Shown here: positions 2 to 12,945 of the stretch, piece after piece | Layout: each line of letters begins with the position of its first letter | Position numbering within the stretch: position 1 is the first letter of the stretch | Source of the DNA: Yoonia sp. | Lineage (GTDB): Bacteria > Pseudomonadota > Alphaproteobacteria > Rhodobacterales > Rhodobacteraceae | Assembly: GCA_020627605.1 (NCBI GenBank) | Contig: JAHDGO010000014.1 | Span: 1-12,945, forward strand | DNA length: 12,945 bases | Direction: 5' to 3' | Notes under the pieces: model-generated | Database searches by the model: none | The model's input: the letters and a program-made list of their open reading frames with translations, nothing else | What the model was told of the DNA's origin: nothing | Translations under genes and position numbers: made by a program

Positions 2-1054
2 GAACCTGGTCAGACCCACTACCATCCAAGTTTTGATGGCTTTCTCAAAAAGCTCTGGAAAAAGGCGAAAAAGGTCGCCAAGAAGGTCGGCAAGGCGGCT
101 GTCACGTTGGGCCTCGGCCCGGTCCTGAAAAAGCACGCGCTGTCGATCATTCCGCTGATCCTTCTGGTCTATATGATTTTGGGTGGCTGGACGCCCGACT
201 ATGCCGCCGTTTACGGGATCGTTGCCTGTATTGTGGTCGGTTTCATCAACCCCAGTGATCGGCTGACGATACCGGACTTGTGGCACGCATTGGCCGCTGG
301 CGCGAAAAGCACCCTTGCCGTCGGTGCGGCGGCTGCGACGGTTGGCATCGTCGTTGGCGTGGTTACCCTGACGGGGATCGGTTTCAGCCTTGGCAACACC
401 GTCATTCTGTTGGGCCGTGACATGGGCGAGTTTGTCAGCACGCTTTGGCCGTTTTCGTATTTTCTGGTTGATCAGTGGGCACTGTTCTTTTCGCTGATCC
501 TGATCGCGGTCGCCTGTATCCTGATGGGGGCAGGCATTCCAACAACGGCGACATATATCATCCTTGTGGCCGTGGCCGCACCGATCCTGCAAAGTCAGGG
601 GGTAGAGCCGCTCGTCGCGCATTTCTTTGTGTTCTACTATGGCGTTCTGGCAGATATCACGCCGCCGGTGGCGTTGGCGGCCTATGCGGCGTCAGGCATT
701 GCGGGGTCAAATCCGTTCAGGACGGGCAACACTGCATTCCGGTTGGGGATCGCCAAAGCGCTTGTGCCATTTGTATTTATCTACTCGCCAGCGCTTTTGC
801 TTGTGACGCAGGACTTCACATGGTCGGCTTTCGTGGTGACGTTGACGGGGGCCATGCTGGGTATTGCCGGCCTGGGCGTGGCCTTTTCCGGCTATCTGCT
901 GGCCCCGATGACGCGGTTGGAAAAGTGGTGGGTCGGGCTTGCATCGCTGTTGTTTATTGCGCCGGGGTTGATGACCATGGCGGTGGGCATACTACTGATC
1001 GCCCCGGTCCTTGTGCTGCAGATTTCCAAGTCACGGGCAAGCACGCCAGCCTGA
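2..1054 (+). CDS. TRAP transporter fused permease, TAXI type (3' part, start outside window)
   Basis: The reading frame is open from the window edge, so the N-terminal part (the small DctQ-like portion and early DctM helices) lies upstream. What remains is the C-terminal part of the large permease subunit, which moves organic acids across the inner membrane with a sodium or proton gradient and a periplasmic TAXI binding protein. The family is recognised from the late DctM block: AGIPTTATYI, then HFFVFYYGVLADITPPVALAAY and the SNPFRTGNTAFRLG stretch, followed by several hydrophobic helices and a short polar tail (SKSRASTPA). A lysine-rich segment (KKLWKKAKKVAKKVGK) near positions 47-97 is probably a cytoplasmic linker between the two halves. 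The TTG at 107 is internal and is not the start. The substrate cannot be read from sequence. No GntR-like palindrome is near it, so it is probably outside the sugar regulon downstream. Confidence 0.9.
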   Translation, partial: EPGQTHYHPSFDGFLKKLWKKAKKVAKKVGKAAVTLGLGPVLKKHALSIIPLILLVYMILGGWTPDYAAVYGIVACIVVGFINPSDRLTIPDLWHALAAGAKSTLAVGAAAATVGIVVGVVTLTGIGFSLGNTVILLGRDMGEFVSTLWPFSYFLVDQWALFFSLILIAVACILMGAGIPTTATYIILVAVAAPILQSQGVEPLVAHFFVFYYGVLADITPPVALAAYAASGIAGSNPFRTGNTAFRLGIAKALVPFVFIYSPALLLVTQDFTWSAFVVTLTGAMLGIAGLGVAFSGYLLAPMTRLEKWWVGLASLLFIAPGLMTMAVGILLIAPVLVLQISKSRASTPA

Positions 1055-1108: not shown

Positions 1109-1268
1109 GAAACAATGTAGTCATTTCTGAAAAACTGTTTCGCAGATTTTGGCGCCAATGCCCTTGCAGGCCTAAAATTGGACGCGCGTGCAGTTTTTTC
1201 ATGGCATTCATCTACCATTAATGTTTGATTGCCTTGGCGTGCCCTGTGGTGGGTGCGGACTTGAAGAT

Positions 1269-1272
1269 GAGG
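1269..1272 (+). promoter_or_regulatory. Shine-Dalgarno that sets the peptidase start
   Basis: GAGG lies 6 nt before the ATG at 1279. The upstream in-frame alternatives (TTG at 1225, ATG at 1267) have no comparable site, so 1279 is preferred. Confidence 0.6.
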
Positions 1273-1278
1273 CCAGTA

Positions 1279-3705
1279 ATGAGTTCCACGACGATCACCG
1301 GGCAATCGACCGCCCCAACCAGCAACGATACCTCATCCGACGATCCAACCGTATCACCAAGCTTTATCGGCCCGCACGTCAGCAGTTGCGGTTGCCCCGG
1401 ATGCCACGTTGCTGCCGATGATGGCACCGGATCTTTTGATCGTGGCACGGTTTTTGCGGCAGAACCAGATGGCGTCATCGACTTCGGGGTGACGCCCGGC
1501 ACAGGCGTGGGCCTGTCAGGCAACCCGCTGATTGATGGATTGCTCGGCGGTGGACGCTGGATCGATCCAGAGGTGACCTACAGCTTTCTCGACGATGAAT
1601 CGGACATTTCCTACGAAAACACCGAGTACGCCCAAAGCTTTTACGAAACCTACTTTCGCGGATTTAGAGCCGTCTCGGACGAGTCAGCGGCCGCTTTGCG
1701 GCTGGCACTTGACGAATATGCGAATGTATCCGGGCTCAGCTTTGTAGAGCTTGATGGGCCAGAAGGTGCGTTGGACGAAGATCAGGAAGCCACCATGCGG
1801 TTTTCGCAATGGGACGCTAGCCGCTTTAACGGGTTTGGTGGTTTTCCCGTATGGAATACCGAAGACGCGGGCCAGGTCCGCCTGTCCAATGATTTCCAGA
1901 ATTTTGACATGGGGTCCTATGGGTTCTTTCTGGCGTTGCACGAAATCGGGCACTCGCTGGGGTTTTTGCACACGTTCCACGGCACGCGGATTCCCGATGA
2001 ATATGACACGATCGAATACAGCGTGATGACCTATGATTTCCGGCCAGAGGAAGACGCCGGTTTCATGCAGTCGCTGATGCAGGTCGATATCGCCGCGATC
2101 CAGTACATTTATGGTGCCAACTTCGACTACAACGCCGATGATACCGAATACACGTTCGATATCCGCACCGGCGAAATGTCCATCAATGGGGTCGGGCAAG
2201 GCACGCCTGCTGACAATGTGATCATGCGGACCGTCTGGGATGGCGGCGGCGTCGATCACTACAACTTTGGCAATTACCAGACCGATATGATGATCGACCT
2301 CAATGCCGGTGGCTCTGTCGAAGTCAGCGTCAACGACAATTTCCAGTCGGTGCGGATCGGCGATCAGGACTTTGAGTGGGAGTATGTCGATCAGGTCTAC
2401 AATGCGTTCCTGTACGAAGACGACCTGCGCTCTTTGATTGAAAACGCGACGGGTGGCAGCGGGTCAGACACGTTGATCGGCAATCAGGTCGACAACGTTC
2501 TGAACGGCGGGGCCGGCAATGACGTTCTGCGCGGCGGGCTTGGCAACGACACGCTGGTCGGCGGTGCGGGCAATGACAGGCTTTATGGCGCTGCAGGCGC
2601 AGATATGGCGGCTTTTGCCTATGGTGTTGGCGAATATGTCGTGACGGTCGCCGCGGATGGGCTGGCGATTTTGGGCGAAGGCTTTGACCGCGTTGCCGAT
2701 GGCGTGGAATCCTTCTTGTTTGGAACAGAGACACTGTCGCGGCAGGACCTGCGCGATCTGGCGATCGCCGAAGGCAACGTCCTGAGCGAAAGCGATGAGG
2801 GCAATTGGCGGTTCAACGTGCGCATCGACGAAGGGCAAGCCGCATCAGGCGATATCAGTTCCGGGACGGTCATCGCCATCAATGGGCGGACCTTCGCGGT
2901 GGGCGAACAGATGACGCTCGACTCTGGTGCTCTGCTGACCCTGAACGCTGACGGTACTTACGCCTATGACCAGAACGGGGCGCATGATGATCTTGAATTT
3001 GGCCAAATGGCTGTGGATTCGGTCGTTTACTCATTTATTTCGACACGGGGCGATGTGCGCACCTCTGAGCTGGCCATCAATGTGCGCGGTGTGGGCGACG
3101 GGCCCGTCGCCAACGACGATGTCCTGACGTTCAACCCTGCATGGGTGGCGCAATCGACCAATCTGCTCAGCAATGATTTGGGCGAGGGGCTCAGCGTGCG
3201 CACTTATGACGGCATATATCAGGGTGTCTATTTCTCGATCCGCAGTGATGGCACGATGTACACCAGCGACCGGGGGGCGTTCAGCAATATGGCTCCGGGT
3301 GAGACACGCACCGTCACACGCGACTACGAGATCGTGGATGCCGCAGGCAACACCGACACCGCACAATTCACGTTGACCTTCACGGAAGAGGCGCCCGCGA
3401 CCGGACCAACCGCCAACGACGATGCCTTTGTGTTCAACCCGGCCTGGGTCCCGCAGGCGGGCAATCTGCTGGCGAACGATGTCGGCGATGGGCTGTCGGT
3501 CAGAAAGTTCGATGGCACGCATGATGGCGTCTATTTCTCGATCCGCAGTGATGGCACGGTCTACACCAGCGACAGGGGCGCGTTCAGCAATATGGCCCCG
3601 GGTGAAACGCGCACCGTCGTGCGCGAATACGAGATCATCGACGCGCTGGGCAACACCGACACCGCCCGGCTGGAGCTGACCTTCACCGAAGAGCTGTTTG
3701 CCTGA
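1279..3705 (+). CDS. Secreted serralysin-like M10 metallopeptidase with RTX block and tandem C-terminal repeats
   Basis: This 808-residue protein is probably a calcium-stabilised zinc endopeptidase exported by a type I secretion system. The zinc site is HEIGHSLGFLH at residues 221-231 (ligands H221, H225, H231; general base E222). It is followed by the Met-turn SVMTY around M250. A short RTX nonapeptide block (GGAGND / GGLGND type) lies at about 395-434. Further on come a VCBS-like region (about 525-609) and two cadherin-like repeats at 610-710 and 711-808. There is no Sec signal peptide. The extreme C-terminus (EELFA) has the acidic-then-hydrophobic ending common in type I substrates. All three cysteines sit in one N-terminal motif (C37, C39, C42, followed by H43). 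No ABC exporter, membrane fusion or outer membrane partner gene is in the window, so the exporter must be elsewhere. Its natural target is unknown; nutrient scavenging is only a guess. Confidence 0.9.
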   Translation: MSSTTITGQSTAPTSNDTSSDDPTVSPSFIGPHVSSCGCPGCHVAADDGTGSFDRGTVFAAEPDGVIDFGVTPGTGVGLSGNPLIDGLLGGGRWIDPEVTYSFLDDESDISYENTEYAQSFYETYFRGFRAVSDESAAALRLALDEYANVSGLSFVELDGPEGALDEDQEATMRFSQWDASRFNGFGGFPVWNTEDAGQVRLSNDFQNFDMGSYGFFLALHEIGHSLGFLHTFHGTRIPDEYDTIEYSVMTYDFRPEEDAGFMQSLMQVDIAAIQYIYGANFDYNADDTEYTFDIRTGEMSINGVGQGTPADNVIMRTVWDGGGVDHYNFGNYQTDMMIDLNAGGSVEVSVNDNFQSVRIGDQDFEWEYVDQVYNAFLYEDDLRSLIENATGGSGSDTLIGNQVDNVLNGGAGNDVLRGGLGNDTLVGGAGNDRLYGAAGADMAAFAYGVGEYVVTVAADGLAILGEGFDRVADGVESFLFGTETLSRQDLRDLAIAEGNVLSESDEGNWRFNVRIDEGQAASGDISSGTVIAINGRTFAVGEQMTLDSGALLTLNADGTYAYDQNGAHDDLEFGQMAVDSVVYSFISTRGDVRTSELAINVRGVGDGPVANDDVLTFNPAWVAQSTNLLSNDLGEGLSVRTYDGIYQGVYFSIRSDGTMYTSDRGAFSNMAPGETRTVTRDYEIVDAAGNTDTAQFTLTFTEEAPATGPTANDDAFVFNPAWVPQAGNLLANDVGDGLSVRKFDGTHDGVYFSIRSDGTVYTSDRGAFSNMAPGETRTVVREYEIIDALGNTDTARLELTFTEELFA
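3106..3705 (+). repeat. Tandem ~303-bp repeat encoding two cadherin-like domains
   Basis: Unit 1 spans 3106-3408 and unit 2 spans 3409-3705, in register and inside the peptidase gene. By eye about three quarters of residues are identical. Two blocks are unchanged in protein: GVYFSIRSDGT and YTSDRGAFSNMAPGETRTV. The DNA is also nearly identical across these blocks (for example TTCTCGATCCGCAGTGATGG in both), indicating recent duplication or gene conversion between copies. Confidence 0.9.
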
Positions 3706-4019: not shown

Positions 4020-4035
4020 CTGTGACCGATAACAC
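4020..4035 (+). promoter_or_regulatory. GntR-like operator before the repressor gene (probable autoregulation)
   Basis: CTGTGACCGATAACAC is an imperfect palindrome of the same design as the sites before the ABC operon and gnd. It ends 4 nt before the GGAG ribosome binding site of the repressor, so a bound repressor would sit over its own promoter or leader. It is the weakest of the four sites. Confidence 0.6.
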
Positions 4036-4049
4036 AGCCGGAGCCATCT

Positions 4050-5108
4050 GTGGACGAAGAAAACAAGTCCGTCACAACAGTGACCATGCGCGATGTCGCA
4101 AAGGCGGCAGGGGTCTCCCGCATGACGGTGTCCCGTGCCCTCAAGAAAGACAGCCCGGTTTCCAAAGATACGCGTGAGAAGATTTTGCGCGTGGTGCGCG
4201 AGATGAATTACGTGCCTGATCAGATGGCCGGAAGCCTGACGACGAAGAAGTCGGGGTTTGTTGCGGTACTGGTTCCGTCGCTGAACAACCTGCACTTTGC
4301 CGAAACCATTCAGGCACTGACGGAAGAACTGGAAACCTGTGATCTTCAGATTCTGCTCGGCCATACCGACTATTCCCCCGACCGAGAGGAAGAACTGGTA
4401 GAGGCGATGCTGCGGCGCAGGCCAGAGGCTATCGTGCTGTCATACGACGGCCATACAGAACGGACGCGTGACCTCTTGAAGGGTGTGAACGTGCCGGTGA
4501 TCGAGTTGTGGGAGCGTCCGACCGCGCCCATCGGTCACACGATTGGCTTTTCAAACCGGGCCGCCGCCGCAGAGATGACGCGCGCACTGATTGCAGATGG
4601 TTACAGCAACATTGCCTTTCTGGGTGAGGAGGCTGACGACTGGACACGTGGTGCACAACGACGCGCAGGGTTTCGGGACGCCATGTTGGCGGCCGGCCTC
4701 TCTGACCACCGGCTTTTGCAGACCGGCAAGCCGCCAATGTCAATCGAAGACGGTGCCGCCGCCGTGCCACTGCTTCTGGACCGGTTCCCTGACACGGATG
4801 CAATCTTTTGCGTGTCTGACGCCCCGGCCTTTGGTGTCCTTGCTGCGCTCAAGATGGCGGGGTTGTCGGTCCCAGACGACATAGGGGTTGCGGGTTTCGG
4901 AAACTTTGAGGTTTCGCGGTTCGCGACGCCGACCATTTCAACCGTGATCGTGGATCCAAGGCGCATTGGTGCTGAAGCAGGGCGACTGATCAGTGGCCTG
5001 CGTGCGGCCACTTTGCCAACCGATGTCATGCAGCGCGTCGATGTGACCCCGGTTGCCGAACTGCGGCAAAGTACAAAGCAAATGGACAAGCCAAAAAACC
5101 CGCACTGA
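4050..5108 (+). CDS. LacI-type transcriptional repressor, gluconate repressor (GntR)-like
   Basis: This 352-residue protein has the standard LacI layout. The DNA-binding helix-turn-helix is at residues 13-33 (MRDVAKAAGVSRMTVSRAL), the hinge helix at about 56-68, and a periplasmic-binding-protein-like effector domain follows from about 70 to the end. The start is the GTG at 4050, with GGAG at 4040-4043, 6 nt upstream. Within the effector domain, stretches such as LVPSLNN, PVIELWE, IGFSNRAAAAEMTRALI and IAFLGE resemble E. coli GntR as I remember it. The recognition helix (RMTVSR) resembles GntR's KMTVSR. The operators found nearby also match the GntR type. The inducer is therefore inferred to be gluconate or a related aldonate, not proven. 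It is transcribed toward the ABC operon, with 75 nt between them, and may control it, itself and the gnd divergent promoter. Confidence 0.88.
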   Translation: MDEENKSVTTVTMRDVAKAAGVSRMTVSRALKKDSPVSKDTREKILRVVREMNYVPDQMAGSLTTKKSGFVAVLVPSLNNLHFAETIQALTEELETCDLQILLGHTDYSPDREEELVEAMLRRRPEAIVLSYDGHTERTRDLLKGVNVPVIELWERPTAPIGHTIGFSNRAAAAEMTRALIADGYSNIAFLGEEADDWTRGAQRRAGFRDAMLAAGLSDHRLLQTGKPPMSIEDGAAAVPLLLDRFPDTDAIFCVSDAPAFGVLAALKMAGLSVPDDIGVAGFGNFEVSRFATPTISTVIVDPRRIGAEAGRLISGLRAATLPTDVMQRVDVTPVAELRQSTKQMDKPKNPH

Positions 5109-5124
5109 ACCCAAATTAGGGCTT

Positions 5125-5164
5125 GTGTTACCGGTCACACACGTGTCAATGTGACCGGTAACAA
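5125..5164 (+). promoter_or_regulatory. Twin GntR-like operators before the ABC operon
   Basis: Two sites, GTGTTACCGGTCACAC (5125-5140) and ATGTGACCGGTAACAA (5149-5164), have centres 24 bp apart. Each is a near-palindrome around ACCGGT. Together they form a perfect 14-bp inverted repeat (5126-5139 with 5150-5163) around a 10-nt spacer. The second site ends 3 nt before the ribosome binding site of the ATPase gene. A repressor bound here would block initiation. The inverted repeat could also fold in the mRNA leader if transcription starts upstream of it. Confidence 0.8.
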
Positions 5165-5167
5165 ATT

Positions 5168-5173
5168 GGAGGG
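5168..5173 (+). promoter_or_regulatory. Shine-Dalgarno that sets the ABC ATPase start
   Basis: GGAGGG lies 10 nt before the ATG at 5184. The in-frame GTG at 5151 falls inside the operator and is upstream of this site, so it is not the start. Confidence 0.6.
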
Positions 5174-5183
5174 CACCGACGGA

Positions 5184-6272
5184 ATGCCGGCGATACATCT
5201 AGAAAAGCTCGTGAAACGCTACGGCAACGTCGAAGTGCTGCACGGTGTCGAACTCGAAATGGCCGACAACGAATTCACCGTGCTGGTTGGTCCGTCGGGC
5301 TGCGGGAAATCCACGACGCTGCGGATGATCGCCGGTCTGGAAGAGGTGTCAGACGGCGAAATCTGGGTGGATGGAAGACCTGTCAGCAAGCTGGAGCCGA
5401 AAGAACGCGATCTTGCGATGGTGTTTCAGGACTACGCGCTTTACCCGCATATGAACGTCGCACAGAATATTTCGTTTGCCTTGCGATTGGCCCGCCGCCC
5501 CAAGGCAGAGATTGACAAGAAGGTCCGTGATGTCGCCGAGATGGTCGGCTTGACCGACTTTCTTGCGCGCAAACCGGCCGCATTATCCGGCGGCCAACGG
5601 CAGCGTGTGGCTATGGCGCGCGCGCTGGCCAAGGACTCGGGTATTTTTCTGTTTGATGAGCCGCTGTCGAACCTTGATGCAAAGCTGCGCGGCCAGATGC
5701 GCGCCGAACTGGCATTGATGAGCCAGCGCGTCGAGAAGAACATGATCTACGTCACGCACGACCAGATCGAGGCGATGACGCTGGCCGATCGGATTGTGGT
5801 GATGCACGGCGGCTATATTCAGCAACAGGGCACGCCGGAGGAGCTGTTCAAGCGTCCGGTGAACAAGTTTGTCGCAGGCTTTCTGGGCATGCCGCCAATG
5901 AATTTCCTTGATGGGGAACTCGTCGAACGCGATGGCGATGTCTTTGCCAAAGGTGCGGGCTACGATTTGCGTTTGTCCGATGACAAGGCAGCTGCTGCCC
6001 GCGCCCACAACAGCCGGGACATTGTGCTTGGCGTGCGGCCGTCAGACCTGCGCTATGACGCTGGGGCGGCGGCTGACCGGGCCCTGCGTCTGGAAGTGAA
6101 AATATCAGAATATGTTGGTGCGCAATCGGTGCTGCTGTGCAGAAGCGGCCCCGATCAGGTGACGGTGGAGGTGGCATCAGACACCCCCTTGGCACTTGGT
6201 GAAACGCTGACATTCGCGGTGGACCCCAACAGGGTGCATCTTTTTGATCGCAAAACGGAAGTCGCGATCTGA
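5184..6272 (+). CDS. Sugar ABC transporter ATP-binding protein (MalK/UgpC type)
   Basis: This 362-residue protein is the cytoplasmic motor of a carbohydrate importer. It hydrolyses ATP as a dimer bound to the two permeases encoded downstream. Motifs appear in order: Walker A GPSGCGKST at residues 36-44, a Q-loop in MVFQDYALYPH, the signature LSGGQ at 134-138, Walker B LFDEP with D158 and E159, and the switch histidine H192 in VTHDQ. The last ~120 residues form the TOBE/MalK-like regulatory region typical of CUT1-family ATPases (GVRPSDLRY is visible). The length is normal for the family. It is the first gene of the operon, directly behind the twin operators. The binding protein gene follows after 24 nt. 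Substrate specificity cannot be taken from this subunit. Confidence 0.94.
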   Translation: MPAIHLEKLVKRYGNVEVLHGVELEMADNEFTVLVGPSGCGKSTTLRMIAGLEEVSDGEIWVDGRPVSKLEPKERDLAMVFQDYALYPHMNVAQNISFALRLARRPKAEIDKKVRDVAEMVGLTDFLARKPAALSGGQRQRVAMARALAKDSGIFLFDEPLSNLDAKLRGQMRAELALMSQRVEKNMIYVTHDQIEAMTLADRIVVMHGGYIQQQGTPEELFKRPVNKFVAGFLGMPPMNFLDGELVERDGDVFAKGAGYDLRLSDDKAAAARAHNSRDIVLGVRPSDLRYDAGAAADRALRLEVKISEYVGAQSVLLCRSGPDQVTVEVASDTPLALGETLTFAVDPNRVHLFDRKTEVAI

Positions 6273-6296
6273 CAAAAACAGCAAAGGGAGGAAACC

Positions 6297-7613
6297 ATGC
6301 TTAAAAGATTTCAAGCTGCAACCGTGGCGACTTTGATGGCGGGAACGGCGCTCGCCAATCCATATGCCGACTATGAGGGCACGACACTGATCGTGAACTT
6401 CCCGGCACATCCGCATTACGATGCGGTCATGCAAATTCTGCCGGAATTCACGGCGCAAACCGGTATCGAGGTCGAGGTGGATCAGCTGCCTTACCTGAAA
6501 ATGCGCGAGCGGCAGACGCTGGAACTTGCGCAGGATGAAGGCGAATATGATCTGATCGCATATGTCGTCTTTTCCAAGGCGGATTACGTTTACGCCGACC
6601 AGCTGGAAAACCTCGCCAAATACTTCATGAACCCGCGTCTTGCCGACCCGAACTACGACGCCGATGACCTGATTGATGGCTACGTCTACAACATCGGCTT
6701 TGCCGGGGGTGAGCGTGGCTATCTTGAGGGTGCAACGGGGTCATTGTTCGGTATTCCATACGGGTCGGAAACCTCTGTTCTGGGCTATCGGACGGATATC
6801 TTTGAAAAGCACGGGTTGGACGTACCAGAAACCTACGAGGAGATGCTGGAACTCGCTTGCCGCATTCCCCAGCTTGAGCCCGGCATGGGTGGTCTGGCAT
6901 CGCGTGCGGCCTCTGGTCACCATGCGGCGCATGCATTCCTGCTTCACCTGAACCCACTGGGCGGCGGCATCTTTGATGACAATTGGGAACCCATCGTCAA
7001 CAATGCAGCAGGCGTACAGGCCGCTGAGGCGCTGAAGCAGATCATTGATTGTGGGCCAGAGGGCGCTGTGAACTTCGGCTTTGGCGAGGCGCTGGGCAGC
7101 TTCCTGAATGGTGACACCGCGATGTATCTTGATACCACCGTTGTATCGGGTCAGGTGAACGACCCTGACAAGTCACAGGTTGTCGGCAATGTTGGATGGG
7201 CCCTGCACCCGATGGGCGTAGAGCGTGCAAGCCAAACCGGCGGTTTCGGCATCGGCATCCCGGCGAACGCCGAAAACAAGGAAGCCGCGTTCCTGCTGAT
7301 GCAATGGCTTACCTCGCGCGAAGGCGACAAGCTGGTGGCACTGGCTGGCGGCAACCCGTCTCGCTTCTCCACCCATGCTGATCCCGATGTCAACGCGGCC
7401 TTCCCGCATATGGCGACTTTCGGGGAGGCCCTGCAATATGCCGATCCTGACTGGCGTCCGATCATCCCAGTCTGGGGCAAGATCAACGCTGACCTCGGCA
7501 CGACATTGTCCAAGGTCCTGACCGAGGACCTCGATATCCAGGAAGCCCTTGACGGCGTCGCCGAACGCAGCCGCGCTGTCATGGACGAGGCCGGCTACTA
7601 CACCTGGCAGTAA
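6297..7613 (+). CDS. Periplasmic sugar-binding protein of the ABC importer (family 1)
   Basis: This 438-residue extracellular solute-binding protein captures the substrate in the periplasm and delivers it to the two permeases. The N-terminus is a Sec signal peptide (MLKRFQAATVATLMAGTALA), with likely cleavage after residue 20 before NPYAD. There is no lipobox cysteine, so the mature protein should be soluble. A strong ribosome binding site (GGGAGG) lies 5 nt before the ATG. Family 1 features include the early strand TLIVNFPAHPHY, the QTGIEVEVDQLPYLKMRE segment, GSLFGIPYGSETSVLGYRTDIFEKHGLDVPETYEEM, and the late FLNGDTAMYLDTT and FGIGIPANAENKEAAFLLMQWL. The length is typical. Position in the operon with a lactonase suggests a sugar, sugar acid or polyol ligand, but this is inference. 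Confidence 0.93.
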   Translation: MLKRFQAATVATLMAGTALANPYADYEGTTLIVNFPAHPHYDAVMQILPEFTAQTGIEVEVDQLPYLKMRERQTLELAQDEGEYDLIAYVVFSKADYVYADQLENLAKYFMNPRLADPNYDADDLIDGYVYNIGFAGGERGYLEGATGSLFGIPYGSETSVLGYRTDIFEKHGLDVPETYEEMLELACRIPQLEPGMGGLASRAASGHHAAHAFLLHLNPLGGGIFDDNWEPIVNNAAGVQAAEALKQIIDCGPEGAVNFGFGEALGSFLNGDTAMYLDTTVVSGQVNDPDKSQVVGNVGWALHPMGVERASQTGGFGIGIPANAENKEAAFLLMQWLTSREGDKLVALAGGNPSRFSTHADPDVNAAFPHMATFGEALQYADPDWRPIIPVWGKINADLGTTLSKVLTEDLDIQEALDGVAERSRAVMDEAGYYTWQ

Positions 7614-7655
7614 CCCTCCCCGGCGCTGCGTCTCTTTGAAAGGGCGCGGCGTCTC

Positions 7656-7679
7656 GGCCCATCGCCCCGGCGGTGGGTC
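7656..7679 (+). terminator. Intercistronic stem-loop between binding protein and permease genes
   Basis: CCCATCGC (7658-7665) pairs with GCGGTGGG (7670-7677) with one G:U pair and loop CCCG. A G:C and a G:U pair can extend the base. There is no T-run, so it is not a full terminator. Such hairpins after binding-protein genes, as in the malE-malF gap, commonly protect the upstream mRNA or reduce read-through, so that the binding protein is made in excess. Confidence 0.5.
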
Positions 7680-7713
7680 ACCTTACCAAGTCTAATTTTC
7701 CGGAGCCCCGCAG

Positions 7714-8625
7714 ATGTCGCTTGCCCGCGCCAATCGTTTGACACCCTGGCTGTTTCTCGGCCCTGCCGCTGTCATTATGGCCATCGCGCTGCTGTACCCC
7801 TTGGGGTACATGGTCTGGGGTTCGTTTCGCGACTGGGACCCAAGCCAGACCATCGGTGAGGCGGAATTTGTTGGCCTCAAGAACTACATCACGCTCTGGA
7901 ACGACCCCAACTTTCGCGAAAGTCTTGGTGTCACGCTGAAATTTGCGTTCTTCTGCGTTTCTATCGAGATGGTCATCGGCGTCGGGCTTGCCCTGCTGCT
8001 CGACCGCAACATACGCGGCATGTCGTTGCTGCGGACCATGTTCATTTTGCCGATGATGATCGCCCCCGTCGTTGTGGGCCTGATGTGGCGCTATATGTAT
8101 CACCCGACGGTCGGCACCTTTAACCGGTTCCTGGAAAGTGTTGGCCTGCCCGATGTGGATTGGCTGGGACAGCACGCGCTGACCAGCGTCATCATTGCCG
8201 ACATCTGGCAGTGGACCCCTTTCATTTTCATTCTGTCGCTTGCCGCACTGCAATCATTGCCGCGATCTGCGCTGGAGGCTGCGCGCATTGATGGGGCGAC
8301 CCCATGGCAGCAAATCTGGCATATCAAGCTGCCGCTGATGATGCCGGTCCTGATCGTCACATGCCTGCTGCGCCTGATTGACGCGTTCAAGGTGCTCGAG
8401 GTGATCCTTGTCCTGACCGAAGGCGGCCCCGGCCTTTCGACTGAAATCCTCGCCCTGCGCATTTCGCGCACTGCGACCGAATTCAGAGAGCTTGGCGTTG
8501 CCGCCGCCATGTCAAATTACCTGCTGATGCTATTGCTCTTGCTGACCGTCGCCATGTTTGCCTTCACCAGATGGCAAGAGGTCCGCGCTGCACGCATCCG
8601 CCAAGCCGCCGAGACTGACCAATGA
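7714..8625 (+). CDS. Sugar ABC transporter permease 1 (MalF/UgpA type)
   Basis: This 303-residue inner membrane protein is one half of the translocation channel. About six hydrophobic segments are visible, starting with WLFLGPAAVIMAIALLYPLG. The EAA loop that docks on the ATPase is EAARIDGATPWQQIWHIKLP at residues 188-207, with the expected E-A-A and D-G residues. GGAG lies 8 nt before the ATG. A 100-nt gap carrying a stem-loop separates it from the binding protein gene. Its stop codon overlaps the next start by 4 nt (ATGA), so the two permeases are translationally coupled. Length and loop sizes are ordinary, in contrast to the next gene. Confidence 0.94.
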   Translation: MSLARANRLTPWLFLGPAAVIMAIALLYPLGYMVWGSFRDWDPSQTIGEAEFVGLKNYITLWNDPNFRESLGVTLKFAFFCVSIEMVIGVGLALLLDRNIRGMSLLRTMFILPMMIAPVVVGLMWRYMYHPTVGTFNRFLESVGLPDVDWLGQHALTSVIIADIWQWTPFIFILSLAALQSLPRSALEAARIDGATPWQQIWHIKLPLMMPVLIVTCLLRLIDAFKVLEVILVLTEGGPGLSTEILALRISRTATEFRELGVAAAMSNYLLMLLLLLTVAMFAFTRWQEVRAARIRQAAETDQ

Positions 8626-9557
8626 ACCAGCCCTACGACAAGCAGAACCCCGCCTTCTACGCGCTTCTTGCGGCACTCGCCTTCATGGCGGTCGGTCCGG
8701 TCGCGCTGATGTTCATCAACAGTTTCAAACTGGACGTGGATATCATTTCAGGCACCTCCGGGCTGCTGTTCCTGCCGACGATCCAAAACTACGAAACCGC
8801 ACTTTGCGACGTGCTCTGGTATGAGCCGGACCATATTGATTTCTGTTCGCTGAAATTTGGCGGGGCCTTCATCAATTCGCTGATCATCGCGCTGGTCTCC
8901 ACGGTCCTGACGCTCGTGATCGGGTGCATGGCCGCTTACGCACTTGTGCGGTTCCGCTTTATGGGCCGCGATACAGTGTCACTGACGACGCTGATGGTGC
9001 GGATGGTACCCCCTGCGGTGCTGTTGGTGCCTGTGTTTGGTCTGTGGAACAACGAATTCTGTCTGGACCGCGATGGATTTATCGGCGGGCTGATCCGCGA
9101 TACCTTTGGCGGGCGCGGTGATGTCTGCCTTGCTGGCACACACTCAGGCATCATCCTTGTCTATGTCGCCATGAACCTGCCCTTCGTGATCTGGATCTTG
9201 CAAAGCTTTATCGTGCAGGTCCCAAGGTCGTTGGAAGAGGCCGCGCGCGTCGACGGCGCCGGACCATTTCAGGTCTTTTTCCTTGTGGTCCTGCCACTGA
9301 TCAAACCGGGCCTTGCGGCCGCCGCGATCTTTACCTTCCGCATTGCATGGAACGAATACCTGCTGGCATCCGCTCTCAGCGACCGCAACACAAAGACTGT
9401 TCCGATCCTGATCGTGAACAACATGTCCGAGTTCAACGTGGAGTGGGGCGTGATCATGGCCACCGGCATGTTGCTGGCGATACCACCCATCATCTTCACA
9501 TTGCTTGCCAGTCGCCAGATCATCACCGGCATGACCGCAGGGGCCGTGAAGGGCTGA
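8622..9557 (+). CDS. Sugar ABC transporter permease 2 (MalG/UgpE type) with enlarged cysteine-bearing periplasmic loops
   Basis: This 311-residue protein is the second half of the importer channel and pairs with the preceding permease. It shows about six membrane segments, the RMVPPAVLLVPVFGLW third helix typical of MalG-like proteins, and the EAA loop EEAARVDGAGPFQVFF at residues 205-220. Two loops predicted to face the periplasm are longer than in the MalG-type sequences I know. The first, before helix 2, carries C62 and C75. The second, between helices 3 and 4 (about 143-175), carries C147 and C169. C102 lies within a helix. The extra loops could form disulfides or contact the binding protein; this is inference. 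It overlaps the upstream gene by 4 nt and the next gene by 1 nt (TGATG). Confidence 0.93.
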   Translation: MNQPYDKQNPAFYALLAALAFMAVGPVALMFINSFKLDVDIISGTSGLLFLPTIQNYETALCDVLWYEPDHIDFCSLKFGGAFINSLIIALVSTVLTLVIGCMAAYALVRFRFMGRDTVSLTTLMVRMVPPAVLLVPVFGLWNNEFCLDRDGFIGGLIRDTFGGRGDVCLAGTHSGIILVYVAMNLPFVIWILQSFIVQVPRSLEEAARVDGAGPFQVFFLVVLPLIKPGLAAAAIFTFRIAWNEYLLASALSDRNTKTVPILIVNNMSEFNVEWGVIMATGMLLAIPPIIFTLLASRQIITGMTAGAVKG

Positions 9558-10267
9558 TGGAGTGGCTCCTCGCCCCCATCGACCCGTCACGCGCGCATGA
9601 GGTCGGATTTGCCGTTTCATGGCATGCACGGGTGATGGTCCTGGCCTGGGTCATTCTTGCGCCACTTGCAGTCATCGTTGCCAGATATTTCAAGGTGCTG
9701 CCTAAACAGGATTGGCCACAGGTGCTTGATAGTCAGGTCTGGTGGCGCAGCCACTGGATGGGCCACAGCTGCGTTGTTGTGCTGAGCATCTTTGGCCTTG
9801 GGGTCATTCTTAGCACCGGGCGGGCCACAAACCTGCACAGTCTGCTGGGTTATGGTGTGCTGTTGCTGATGGGTATCCAAGTCGTCTTTGGCATCCTGCG
9901 CGGCAGCAAGGGCGGACCTACGGCACCGGCGCGCGATGGCAGCCTGCGCGGCGATCACTACGACATGACCCTTTGGCGCGTCATCTTCGAATGGGTGCAT
10001 AAGGTGGTTGGCTACGTAACATTGGTCCTTGCCGCTGTCGTCACCAGCCTGGGCCTATGGACCGCGAATGCGCCGCGCTGGATGTGGTTGGCTATCTTGT
10101 TCTGGTACGTTGCTATCCTTTTGCTTGCCGTGATCCTGCAAAGACAGGGGCGCGCCGTCGATACGTATCAGGCCATCTGGGGCCCGGATCCGCAGCATCC
10201 GGGCAATCAACGCAAGCCGATTGGTTGGGGCATCCGTCGCCGTGATACCCGCCAGCCTGGTGAATGA
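9557..10267 (+). CDS. Cytochrome b561-like membrane protein, probable diheme transmembrane electron carrier
   Basis: This 236-residue membrane protein resembles the b561 / ferric reductase transmembrane family, including the kind found next to DOMON domains in other organisms. These proteins pass electrons across a membrane through two b hemes held by paired histidines. Candidate ligands lie in or near helix ends: H23 (SWHARVMVLAW), H66 or H70 (RSHWMGHS), H94 (NLHSLLGYG) and H148 (WVHKVVGY). About five hydrophobic segments are visible, then a polar tail rich in arginine and proline. The chosen start at 9557 overlaps the permease stop by one base, and its end overlaps the in-frame upstream ATG of the lactonase frame, so it is clearly an operon member. 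A longer upstream frame exists but runs through the permease gene. No DOMON or other periplasmic partner is encoded here. Its electron donor and acceptor are unknown. Confidence 0.8.
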   Translation: MEWLLAPIDPSRAHEVGFAVSWHARVMVLAWVILAPLAVIVARYFKVLPKQDWPQVLDSQVWWRSHWMGHSCVVVLSIFGLGVILSTGRATNLHSLLGYGVLLLMGIQVVFGILRGSKGGPTAPARDGSLRGDHYDMTLWRVIFEWVHKVVGYVTLVLAAVVTSLGLWTANAPRWMWLAILFWYVAILLLAVILQRQGRAVDTYQAIWGPDPQHPGNQRKPIGWGIRRRDTRQPGE

Positions 10268-10270
10268 ATG

Positions 10271-10277
10271 AGGGGGG
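10271..10277 (+). promoter_or_regulatory. Shine-Dalgarno that sets the lactonase start
   Basis: A G-rich AGGGGGG lies 7 nt before the ATG at 10285. The alternative ATG at 10264 would overlap the b561 stop by 4 nt and add seven residues (MNEGGSR), but it would place this site inside the gene. 10285 is preferred, though coupling through 10264 cannot be excluded. Confidence 0.5.
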
Positions 10278-10284
10278 CAGCAGG

Positions 10285-11208
10285 ATGTATGGCGTGATCG
10301 AAGGAACCGGGTTTGAAGTTATCGCCCCCGCCTTTGCGGACTGTTTTGTCGGCCATGCACGGGTGGAGCGTTTGTGGACTGGCGCGCGATGGTCAGAGGG
10401 ACCAGTATGGCACGCCGCTGGCCGTTATCTGCTCTGGTCCGATATCCCCAATAACCGGATATTGCGCTGGGATGATTCCGATGGTCATGTGTCGACCTTT
10501 CGGCAACCGTCGCAAAACGCGAACGGCCAGACGGTTGACCGGCAGGGGCGTCTGATCACTTGCGAGCATCTGACCCGCCGTGTCACCCGCACCGAATTCG
10601 ACGGATCCATCACTGTTATTGCAGACAGGTTTCAAGGTAAGCGCCTGAATTCTCCTAATGATGTGGTGGTCAAATCAGATGGTTCGATCTGGTTTACCGA
10701 CCCCAGCTATGGCATCCTTATGGACTATGAAGGAGAGCGCGCAGTGCCAGAACAGGACGGCTGTCATGTCTACCGTGTTGCAGCGGACGGCACGATGACA
10801 CAGGTGACGCAGGACTATCTGAAACCAAACGGGCTGGCATTTTCACCTGACGAAAGTCTGCTTTATATCGCAGACACTGGCGTCACCCACCATAATGACG
10901 GGCCGCAGCATATTCGCCGCCACACCGTCAATGCCGATGGCACCCTTTCGGGGGGGGAGGTCCTTGCAACCTGCACCGAAGGATTGTTTGACGGGTTCAG
11001 GGTCGATACTGCGGGCCGGATCTGGAGTTCTGCCGCCGACGGGGTCCATTGCCTGTCGCCTGAGGGAGAATTGATCGGCAAGGTCCACATTCCGGAAATC
11101 GTCGGGAACCTCTGTTTCGGCGGCGCCAAGCTGAACCGTCTGTTCATCTGCGGCACTACCTCGCTTTATGCGGTCTACCTTAACGTCAACGGCATTTCAC
11201 CGGTCTGA
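10285..11208 (+). CDS. SMP-30/gluconolactonase family lactonase
   Basis: This 307-residue six-bladed beta-propeller enzyme is expected to hydrolyse a sugar lactone such as gluconolactone to the aldonate with a divalent metal ion. Metal ligands expected for the family are visible: E38 in the SEGPVW motif, N182 in PNGLAF and D236 in DGFRVD. The substrate-side motif NSPND is at residues 122-126. Repeated propeller-blade motifs such as GRLITCEH, GSIWFTDPSYG and ESLLYIADT run through the protein. There is no signal peptide, so it should act in the cytoplasm. It is the last gene of the operon and runs tail-to-tail with gnd, 18 nt away. With a GntR-like repressor and gnd it makes an aldonate route likely. 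The dehydrogenase that would make the lactone is not in the window. Confidence 0.92.
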   Translation: MYGVIEGTGFEVIAPAFADCFVGHARVERLWTGARWSEGPVWHAAGRYLLWSDIPNNRILRWDDSDGHVSTFRQPSQNANGQTVDRQGRLITCEHLTRRVTRTEFDGSITVIADRFQGKRLNSPNDVVVKSDGSIWFTDPSYGILMDYEGERAVPEQDGCHVYRVAADGTMTQVTQDYLKPNGLAFSPDESLLYIADTGVTHHNDGPQHIRRHTVNADGTLSGGEVLATCTEGLFDGFRVDTAGRIWSSAADGVHCLSPEGELIGKVHIPEIVGNLCFGGAKLNRLFICGTTSLYAVYLNVNGISPV

Positions 11209-11226
11209 CGCGGCGCGGCACCTCCC

Positions 11227-12651
11227 TTATTCACTCAGGTGCTGGTTCAGCCAAGGGCCGTGATACCCCGTGCCCGCCCGGTCGGTCCTGGCAAAACCAT
11301 GCGCGCCGAAGAAGTCACGCTGACCCTGAATCATGTTGGCGGTGCCACGCGCTTGCGTCAAAGTATCAAAGTAGGTCAGTGCCGCCGCCATCGCCGGTAC
11401 AGGTAGGGCAGCGCCAACAGCGGCACCGACCACCTGGCGCAGGGCAGGCAGTTTTCCGGCAATCAAGTCCGCAAAATACGGCGTGAAAATCAGATTGTCC
11501 GGTGCTGTGGCAAGTGCGGTTGCCATGTTATCCAACATCGCGGATCGAATGATGCAGCCCGCCCGCCAGACCTGCGCAATCGCCGGCATGGGCAAATCCC
11601 ATCCATGTTCTCTGGCCGCTTTGACCAGCAGATCAAAGCCTTGCGCATAGCACAGGATTTTCCCGGCGATCAGCGCGTCTCTTAAGGTGTTCTCTCCCAA
11701 GGAGATTGGGGTAGACTCAGCGTTTTCTCGCCTGAATAGGGCCTCACCTGCGCGCCGCAGGGCAGGGTTGGAAGACAGGTTGCGCGCAGCCACTGCAGCC
11801 TCGATCACGGACACCGGTGCACCCAGCATCTGTGCTTCGATCGCCGTCCAGCGACCCGTGCCCTTCTGGCCTGCGCTGTCCTGAATGATGTCCAGCATCG
11901 GCTGGCCTGTCTCCGGGTCTGTTGCTTCGGCGACCTTGCCAGATATCTCGATCAGATAGCTTTGCAGCAGCCCGCCATTCCAGCGGTCAAAGACGTCGGC
12001 CACTGCGGCCGGGCGCATGTGCAACCCGTCGCGCATGATGCCAAAGGATTCCGCTATCAGCTGCATATCGGCGTATTCGATCCCGTTGTGGACCGTCTTG
12101 ACGAAGTGACCCGCACCGCCCTCACCCATCCAGGTCGCGCAGGGCTGACCTTCGTATTTGGCGGCGATGGCCGACAGCATAGGCGCGACCCTGTCCCATG
12201 CCGGACGCGGCCCACCACCCATGATGGACGGCCCAAACCGCGCACCTTCTGCGCCGCCTGACACCCCAATCCCAAGAAAGGGAAAACCCGCCTTGCGGGC
12301 CTCAACAGCGCGCCTGGCAGAGTCGTGAAAATTCGCATTACCAGCGTCGATGATCAGATCATCTGCCTCCAGCAGCGGGCGCAATGCTGCAATCTGGTCG
12401 TCCACGGCTTGCCCTGCGGGCACCATCAGAATGATATTGCGCGGCGGCTTGAGGGCGGCCACCAGATCAGCCAGCGACGGGCAGGGCGTCAACCGATGCG
12501 CCAGATCGCCTGCCTCCTCCAGAAATTCACCGATCCGCGCTGTTGTCCGGTTGTGGACCGCCACCCGAAATCCGTTGTCCGCGATGTTTAAGGCGAGCAT
12601 GGCCCCCATCGTGCCCAGCCCGATCAAACCGAAATCCGCCTCAGATGCCAT
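11227..12651 (-). CDS. gnd: 6-phosphogluconate dehydrogenase (decarboxylating)
   Basis: This 474-residue enzyme converts 6-phosphogluconate plus NADP+ to ribulose 5-phosphate, CO2 and NADPH in the pentose phosphate pathway. It is the long (E. coli / animal) form by length. Visible features are the Rossmann motif GLGTMG at residues 11-16, N34-R35-T36 as expected for NADP+ use, N105 in IDAGNANF, the SGG at 131-133, and the family signature GHFVKTVHNGIEYADMQ with catalytic K185 and E192. Also visible are GCIIRSAMLD and the C-terminal QRDFFGAHGFARTD tail. The ATG at 12651 is chosen over an upstream TTG because AAGGA (12658-12662) lies 6 nt before it. A GntR-like palindrome sits about 30 nt upstream of the start. 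Tail-to-tail with the lactonase gene, it probably serves the same sugar-acid route. Confidence 0.96.
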   Translation of the reverse strand: MASEADFGLIGLGTMGAMLALNIADNGFRVAVHNRTTARIGEFLEEAGDLAHRLTPCPSLADLVAALKPPRNIILMVPAGQAVDDQIAALRPLLEADDLIIDAGNANFHDSARRAVEARKAGFPFLGIGVSGGAEGARFGPSIMGGGPRPAWDRVAPMLSAIAAKYEGQPCATWMGEGGAGHFVKTVHNGIEYADMQLIAESFGIMRDGLHMRPAAVADVFDRWNGGLLQSYLIEISGKVAEATDPETGQPMLDIIQDSAGQKGTGRWTAIEAQMLGAPVSVIEAAVAARNLSSNPALRRAGEALFRRENAESTPISLGENTLRDALIAGKILCYAQGFDLLVKAAREHGWDLPMPAIAQVWRAGCIIRSAMLDNMATALATAPDNLIFTPYFADLIAGKLPALRQVVGAAVGAALPVPAMAAALTYFDTLTQARGTANMIQGQRDFFGAHGFARTDRAGTGYHGPWLNQHLSE

Positions 12652-12657
12652 GGGGTG

Positions 12658-12667
12658 TCCTTTCCTC
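12658..12667 (-). promoter_or_regulatory. gnd: Ribosome binding site of gnd
   Basis: Read on the minus strand this is GAGGAAAGGA. Its AAGGA end lies 6 nt before the ATG at 12651, which supports that start over the in-frame TTG at 12669. Confidence 0.55.
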
Positions 12668-12679
12668 AATCTTCACACT

Positions 12680-12695
12680 ATGGTATCGGTAACAT
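12680..12695 (+). promoter_or_regulatory. GntR-like operator shared by gnd and the divergent glcG-like gene
   Basis: ATGGTATCGGTAACAT is a 16-bp palindrome with two mismatched pairs, of the same type as the sites before the ABC operon. It lies 28 nt from the gnd start codon (minus strand) and 25 nt from the glcG-like start codon (plus strand), so a single bound repressor could cover both promoters. Confidence 0.72.
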
Positions 12696-12720
12696 ATTGA
12701 GTCAATGAAAGGAACTCCGA

Positions 12721-12945
12721 ATGGCAGCGTTTGTTGAAAAATGTCTTAGTCTCAGCCACTTGGCAGTGCTGAAGATGCTTGAGGCAAGCGTCGGGAAAGC
12801 CTCTGAGATCGGGCAACCACAATGCATCGTTATTGTGGACGCCAGCGGCGAACCTCTGGGCGAAATCCGCATGTCCGGCGCAAAGTATCTCAGCCGGAAA
12901 AGCGCCCGAGCCAAGGCGCGCACGGCTGCCTCTATCGGGGCGCCG
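12721..12945 (+). CDS. GlcG/HbpS-type (DUF336) putative heme-binding protein, 5' part
   Basis: The first 75 codons of this gene are inside the window and the frame is still open at the end. AAAGGA at 12708-12713 precedes the ATG by 7 nt. The protein begins directly with the family's usual opening: a helix (LAVLKMLEASVGKASEIG), then a strand and turn (CIVIVDASGEPLGEIRM), then GAKYLSRKSARAKARTAAS. This matches GlcG/HbpS proteins, some of which bind or degrade heme. There is no signal peptide, so it should be cytoplasmic. It faces away from gnd across a 69-nt gap that holds one operator. The C-terminal half, where specificity might show, is missing. A minus-strand frame over the same bases is a shadow. 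Confidence 0.82.
   Translation, partial: MAAFVEKCLSLSHLAVLKMLEASVGKASEIGQPQCIVIVDASGEPLGEIRMSGAKYLSRKSARAKARTAASIGAP

Follow-up and report, generated by a model that had tools for sequence, protein, structure and literature searches.

A conserved local regulon around a LacI-family repressor gene of Yoonia sp., IdnR/GntR-like in operators and gene content

The locus and its operator sites

The DNA analyzed here (the window) is a stretch of 12,945 nucleotides at the start of the Yoonia sp. contig JAHDGO010000014.1 (C224; assembly GCA_020627605.1, genome G000, 72% complete). It encodes a LacI-family repressor, LacI1, an ATP-binding cassette (ABC) importer operon with genes for a cytochrome b561-domain protein and a lactonase, and the divergent gnd and GlcG-like genes. 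Four short palindromic sites lie in front of these genes, and a sequence-only reading had linked all of them through these sites in one GntR-like circuit. The genes and predicted operators are listed below; letters such as C/T name the core base in each half of an operator.

4021 to 4034, plus strand: predicted operator TGTGACCGATAACA before lacI1, C/T halves (pattern match)
4050 to 5108, plus strand: lacI1, LacI-family repressor with the helix VSRMTVSR, residue 17 being R (PF00356, PF13377)
5126 to 5139, plus strand: predicted operator TGTTACCGGTCACA, left half of the mirror pair of the ABC operon, C/C (pattern match)
5150 to 5163, plus strand: predicted operator TGTGACCGGTAACA, right half of the mirror pair, C/C, 24 nucleotides from the first (pattern match)
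5184 to 6272, plus strand: ABC importer ATPase, UgpC/MalK-like (NF008653, 441.1 bits, cutoff 432)
6297 to 7613, plus strand: solute-binding protein of the importer (PF01547; nearest solved relatives 5iai and 4rya, sorbitol)
7714 to 8625, plus strand: ABC permease (PF00528)
8622 to 9557, plus strand: ABC permease (PF00528)
9554 to 10267, plus strand: cytochrome b561-domain membrane protein (PF03188)
10264 to 11208, plus strand: SMP-30/gluconolactonase-type lactonase (PF08450; structures 3e5z, 3dr2)
11227 to 12651, minus strand: gnd, decarboxylating 6-phosphogluconate dehydrogenase (TIGR00873, 546.6 bits, cutoff 426.7)
12677 to 12705, minus strand: promoter-like pair TTGACT-17-CATAGT directed towards gnd (consensus match only, 0.1 expected)
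12681 to 12694, plus strand: predicted operator TGGTATCGGTAACA between gnd and the GlcG-like gene, T/C halves (pattern match)
12721 to 12945, plus strand: GlcG/HbpS-like gene, continuing past the window to C224:13152 (PF03928)

A pattern search of the window recovered all four sites: CTGTGACCGATAACAC at 4020-4035, upstream of the lacI1 GTG codon at 4050; GTGTTACCGGTCACAC at 5125-5140 and ATGTGACCGGTAACAA at 5149-5164, both upstream of the ABC ATPase ATG codon at 5184; and ATGGTATCGGTAACAT at 12680-12695, in the gap from which gnd (start 12651, minus strand) and the GlcG-like gene (start 12721, plus strand) diverge. Their placement just upstream of start codons was as originally described, but the wording "near-identical 16-bp palindromes" was too strong: five, seven, six and six of the eight pairs, in window order, are self-complementary, and the conserved unit is the inner 14-mer, about TGTTACCGGTAACA. 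With up to two mismatches TGTTACCGGTAACA matched exactly four places, the sites themselves, in line with the claim that the window holds no others. The search for ATGTTACCGGTAACAT with up to three mismatches gave three matches against 0.03 expected, a number reached in none of 200 shuffles; the weaker site at 4020 is not among them. The gnd-side operator occupies the spacer of the promoter-like pair and shares two bases with the second hexamer, an arrangement compatible with repression by occlusion.

The contig extends 2.9 kb past the window. Just beyond the window end, a 10-N assembly gap at C224:12946-12955 (L011 447-456) splits the GlcG-like gene. Further on, C224 encodes a protein nearest to L-idonate 5-dehydrogenase (IdnD; 353.6 bits, below the cutoff of 469) and then a 2-hydroxyacid dehydrogenase (nearest solved relative 4lsw), followed by a double site and the start of the gene of an IdnO-like reductase. 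The two sites abut, 14 nucleotides apart (C224:15168-15181 and 15182-15195). Another contig of the same genome, C85, starts with the end of idnO, followed by genes for a gluconokinase (gntK, above the model cutoff), a 3-hydroxyisobutyrate-dehydrogenase-type protein and, lastly, LacI2, a paralogue 44% identical to LacI1. C85 seems to continue C224 because both share the idnO end, though some bases differ there. Plasmid pDOK1-4-2 of Tateyamaria omphalii shows a similar annotated order (idnO, gluconokinase, dehydrogenase, monooxygenase, LacI), with lacI1 and the operon 10 kb on. A three-mismatch match at C85 144-157, first read as a gntK operator, was dropped, as it falls within the final part of the idnO coding frame.

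Conservation of the sites in related loci

Among 57 loci found, L101-L103 (28-32% identity) were dropped, and the 54 retained made up, with the window's contig, a set of 55; L100, with a partial LacI, was counted for sites but left out of the trees. A gene was scored as preceded by a site when a match with at most two mismatches occurred within 350 nucleotides upstream. At this mismatch limit the 55 loci contained 172 sites, whereas 200 permuted palindromes gave 2.4 on average and 22 at most. The circuit had been staked on conservation of the sites before orthologous genes, and such conservation was found: a site preceded the ABC operon in 51 of 52 loci, gnd in 10/10, idnO in 10/11 and the 2-hydroxyacid dehydrogenase gene in 3/3, whereas the binding-protein gene, the internal control, had one in none of 52. 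This footprint supports the predicted circuit of the repressor, the ABC-b561-lactonase operon, gnd and the GlcG-like gene. The proposed connection to gnd/glcG, 7.5 kb away, is likewise favored, since gnd has a site in each locus that contains it.

That the sites are chance palindromes of a GC-rich genome deserves next to no credit. Single sites are imperfect and loose matches are common genome-wide; nevertheless, the permuted-palindrome control rejected this explanation, and across 55 loci the sites recur in front of the same genes. A genome scan, also proposed in the sequence-only reading, placed every match with at most one mismatch within the regulon, 3/3 in the window's genome and 8/8 in three relatives (G020, G125, G146).

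The two sites of the ABC operon form a mirror pair with outer halves TGTTACC and inner halves TGTGACC, exact in 36 of the 55 loci, with a spacing of 22 nucleotides in 29 loci, 23 in six and 24 in one, the window. As these sites were picked by pattern, only the flanks and the spacer are informative in this comparison, and they carry 0.2-1.2 bits a column. PMC4052901 interprets this kind of spacing as a mark of cooperative dimers.

Seventeen of the 172 sites do not precede the tested genes. Twelve of these adjoin another sugar ABC cluster that has a LacI of its own (K17 in the helices read) and represent a related but distinct operator, CGTTACCGGTAACT in L053, L058, L060, L081 and L083-L085, and TGTTACGGGTAACT in L059, L067, L069, L071 and L091.

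LacI1, its paralogue and the operator core

LacI1 belongs to the LacI/GalR family (PF00356, 69.6 bits, cutoff 27; PF13377, 94.1 bits, cutoff 26.5). It falls below both GntR cutoffs (NF011563, 165.4 of 433; the Pseudomonas model NF052440, 260.6 of 400) and below that of IdnR (NF047913, 210.7 of 500), and it is equally far from E. coli GntR and IdnR, with 32% identity to each. The name GntR therefore marks a resemblance only: the proposed likeness of the repressor held, but by the curated cutoffs LacI1 is neither a GntR nor an IdnR equivalog. The likeness of the operators to the E. coli GntR type was borne out, as the same motif occurs before E. coli gntK and at the window sites.

The recognition helix reads VS-X-MTVSR, and its variable position is what we take to be residue 17 in LacI numbering. 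This residue is R in 50 of the 55 loci, the other five carrying S, S, P, N and V. When the 52 loci with ABC-operon sites were compared, at least one C/C site was present in all 47 R loci and in none of the five non-R loci. Four added plasmid loci brought these numbers to 50/50 and 6/6, so that residue 17 and the operator core agree in 56 of 56. The sixth non-R locus, from Martelella, has T17, and its sites near genes of the set are T/T except for two weaker ones (C/T and G/T). Repressor and sites thus change together in related genomes, but with just two changes of each trait on the tree the statistics are weak. In some R17 loci (Roseibium, Granulosicoccus), T-containing sites accompany a C/C one. 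Near LacI1 paralogues the core is mostly T or A, and extension of the residue-17 rule to them was rejected: L023 (P17, C/T) and L025 (P17, C/C 35 nucleotides upstream) break it, and L031 (P17) has A/C. As the paralogues follow it less well, the rule is claimed for the LacI1 group only. Judged from these sequence comparisons, LacI1 very probably binds the sites.

In the recognition code of LacI proteins described by Camas (2010, PMC2978694), operator specificity is likewise determined by the same pair of residues in the helix. The code deals with NT-4 and NT-5, whereas the base covarying here is the second from the center by our own count.

The sites might be read not by LacI1 but by a global regulator of the GapR/CceR type, a LacI-family protein controlling central carbon metabolism. 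A regulator of this kind, sensing 6-phosphogluconate, is described for Rhodobacteraceae in PMC5507952 and PMC4052901, and similar sites were seen by eye elsewhere in the Yoonia genome before gap-like and pyk-like genes. The unlinked gnd of G153 (L143) has TGTTAGCGCTAAAT upstream, four mismatches from the regulon motif, and this gene may be under the global regulator instead. The global-type sites, however, have G in the core, where those of the regulon have C or T, and the presumed GapR/CceR proteins, an assignment made by us, carry E at residue 17, in contrast to R in LacI1 with its core C. All 11 places with at most one mismatch in four genomes belong to this regulon, and the core of the ABC operator tracks residue 17 of LacI1, which makes a global reader very improbable. 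The G-core sites of the Yoonia genome (C269:3869, C252:2570 and C238:5746, before gap-, pyk- and alpha-glucosidase-like genes by eye) presumably form a GapR/CceR regulon.

The paralogue was considered as a second candidate. LacI2 was called at E <= 1e-85, a limit that would pass over more remote copies; 39 of the 56 genomes searched encode it, and its gene closes the idnO operon. Most of these genomes have two sites before idnO, 14 nucleotides apart and largely with mixed T/C halves. In the idnO comparison of 49 genomes a T half was present in 38/38 with LacI2 and in 0/7 without it (Fisher p 2e-8, not corrected for relatedness); the 38 amount to 37 genomes because G146 and G175 carry the same stretch. 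The seven comprise five with C/C sites and two with A; the site-less LacI2-negative genomes G174, G178, G181 and G179 (a fragment without the promoter) stand outside the 38/7 count, and the second idnO copies G173b (T/A site) and G168b (no site) were left out of it. That LacI2 is the main reader of all the sites is nevertheless quite unlikely, as 10 of 17 genomes devoid of LacI2 still have C/C sites upstream of the ABC operon, and the LacI2 helix has P (13) or S (1) at residue 17 in the 14 of 30 loci where it was found by script. LacI2 may share the idnO sites with LacI1.

These observations raised a possible, though rather doubtful, scheme in which two paralogous repressors would share one regulon via a half-site code, R17 of LacI1 recognizing TGTTACC and P17 of LacI2 recognizing TGTTATC. 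The importer operon, with its C/C sites, would answer to LacI1, the mixed or pure T sites of idnO-gntK-lacI2 would be bound by both proteins or by a heterodimer, and no T half would occur without LacI2. Uptake and catabolism would then respond to two ligands. On the LacI1 tree of 44 rows the T half and LacI2 each change five times, and the only three independent pairs on supported branches all agree (p 0.25); L054 (neither LacI2 nor T) and L072 (both) form one close pair. Several loci speak against the link. The plasmid locus of Thalassococcus S3 may be an exception, with T halves before idnO and no LacI2 within the 25 kb covered (chromosome not included). The second locus of G179 (L080), whose LacI1 has P17, contains TGGTATCGATACCA in the idnD-idnO gap, a T/T site without LacI2, and in G158 and G176 mixed sites precede lacI1 without LacI2.

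Gene content, known systems and the proposed pathway

The regulon is larger than the set first proposed, adding idnD, the 2-hydroxyacid dehydrogenase gene, idnO and, probably, gntK, which brings its content nearer to E. coli idn (GntII) than to gnt. IdnD and IdnO share 42% and 47% identity with their E. coli counterparts, sites precede idnO in all but one and idnD in eight of 12 loci, and gluconokinase follows idnO on C85. The idn system (idnDOTR, idnK, IdnR/GntH) shares with this locus a LacI-type repressor combined with idnD, idnO and gluconokinase, and a divergent promoter beside idnD. It differs in having IdnT where an ABC importer is found here, in lacking the lactonase, b561, gnd, GlcG, 2-hydroxyacid dehydrogenase and second repressor genes, and in its regulator, IdnR and LacI1 being 32% identical. 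The gnt system (GntI; GntR, gntKU) has TGTTATCGGTAACA and an overlapping TGTTACGGGTAACT before gntK, a pair 13 nucleotides apart that resembles the idnO double site, and a basic residue at helix position 17 (K in GntR, R in LacI1). In contrast, no GntT/GntU-type permease is encoded in our locus, and LacI1 is as far from GntR as stated above.

The part of the RegPrecise survey of LacI-family regulons at our disposal (Ravcheev 2014, PMC4052901), in which seven gluconate/idonate groups were counted, describes local sugar regulons with even palindromes, central CG and double and overlapping sites, as found here. The regulon is not named in that part or in the other literature searched; the RegPrecise database and supplement, outside this scope, may already list it.

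Altogether, the comparison establishes the sites, their conservation and the gene set as those of a local regulon that is conserved and resembles the IdnR and GntR systems in its operators and content, its repressor belonging to neither equivalog by curated cutoffs. It is quite likely a catabolic regulon for L-idonate, ketogluconates and gluconate under LacI1. From the comparison we infer binding, repression, an inducer, a substrate and roles for the b561 protein and the lactonase. A LacI1 dimer would bind the 14-bp operators, probably two dimers together at the mirror pair, and repression would cover lacI1 itself, gnd/glcG and the importer operon with its b561 and lactonase genes. Outside the window it would include two divergent operons, one of idnD and the 2-hydroxyacid dehydrogenase gene, the other idnO-gntK-dehydrogenase-lacI2. 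LacI1 would come off the DNA in response to one of the acids in the pathway, whether gluconate, 6-phosphogluconate, 5-ketogluconate or idonate, and the importer would take the acid in. IdnD would convert L-idonate to 5-ketogluconate, IdnO this to gluconate, GntK gluconate to 6-phosphogluconate and Gnd the latter to ribulose-5-phosphate. Other 2-keto acids, for example 2-keto-L-gulonate, could enter through the 2-hydroxyacid dehydrogenase; in Ketogulonicigenium, according to PMC6293013, 2-keto-L-gulonate can go to idonate and 6-phosphogluconate via a gluconate 2-dehydrogenase.

Several results weigh against this interpretation. At looser thresholds the genome scan did not rise above the reversed control: with up to three mismatches the pattern matched 53 places in the window's genome and the control 128, and with up to two it matched 9, 11 and 4 against 6, 13 and 19 in G020, G125 and G146. 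Sites precede idnD in the said 8/12 loci only, lacI1 in 29/55 and the GlcG-like gene in 10/28, the site-less GlcG and idnD genes often standing behind another gene of the set. No promoter-like pair was detected in the scanned lacI1/ABC and idnO regions, and the E. coli idnD-idnK promoter has no match at up to three mismatches. Among 13 genomes, gnd was found as one copy in ten and was absent from three. Five of the ten single genes lie in the locus with a site, one is unlinked with a two-mismatch site 32 nucleotides upstream, and four have nothing nearer than four mismatches. Gluconokinase was found in nine of the 13. In several genomes gnd and gntK are either absent or located away from the locus, and the membership of gnd in the regulon varies. 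Finally, a 62%-identical repressor of R. pomeroyi stands in a different sugar-acid cluster, so the substrate is not readable from the repressor.

If the interpretation holds, the ABC-b561-lactonase cluster of many Roseobacter-type and some other marine bacteria gains a probable substrate class (idonate, ketogluconates, gluconate) and a regulatory rule. The regulon also offers a natural experiment in repressor-operator co-change, of residue 17 with the core base and of the paralogue with T half-sites, and these covariations might be the part that a specialist would find new.

The R. pomeroyi DSS-3 cluster (L229) comprises tripartite ATP-independent periplasmic (TRAP) transporter, dehydratase, aldolase-type, aldehyde dehydrogenase and lactonase genes with TGTGACCGGTCACA sites; the sequence of SPO_RS21045 (14037-15041) matches PDB chain 3e3m across the first 100 residues, the part compared. 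Upstream of the regulon in the window, positions 1225-3705 (plus strand) encode a serralysin-like M10/RTX metalloprotease-type protein with bacterial Ig-like domains, below the NCBIfam cutoff and present in none of the other compared loci. Positions 2-1054 (plus strand) hold the end of a fused TRAP transporter permease gene, as far as seen unrelated to the regulon.

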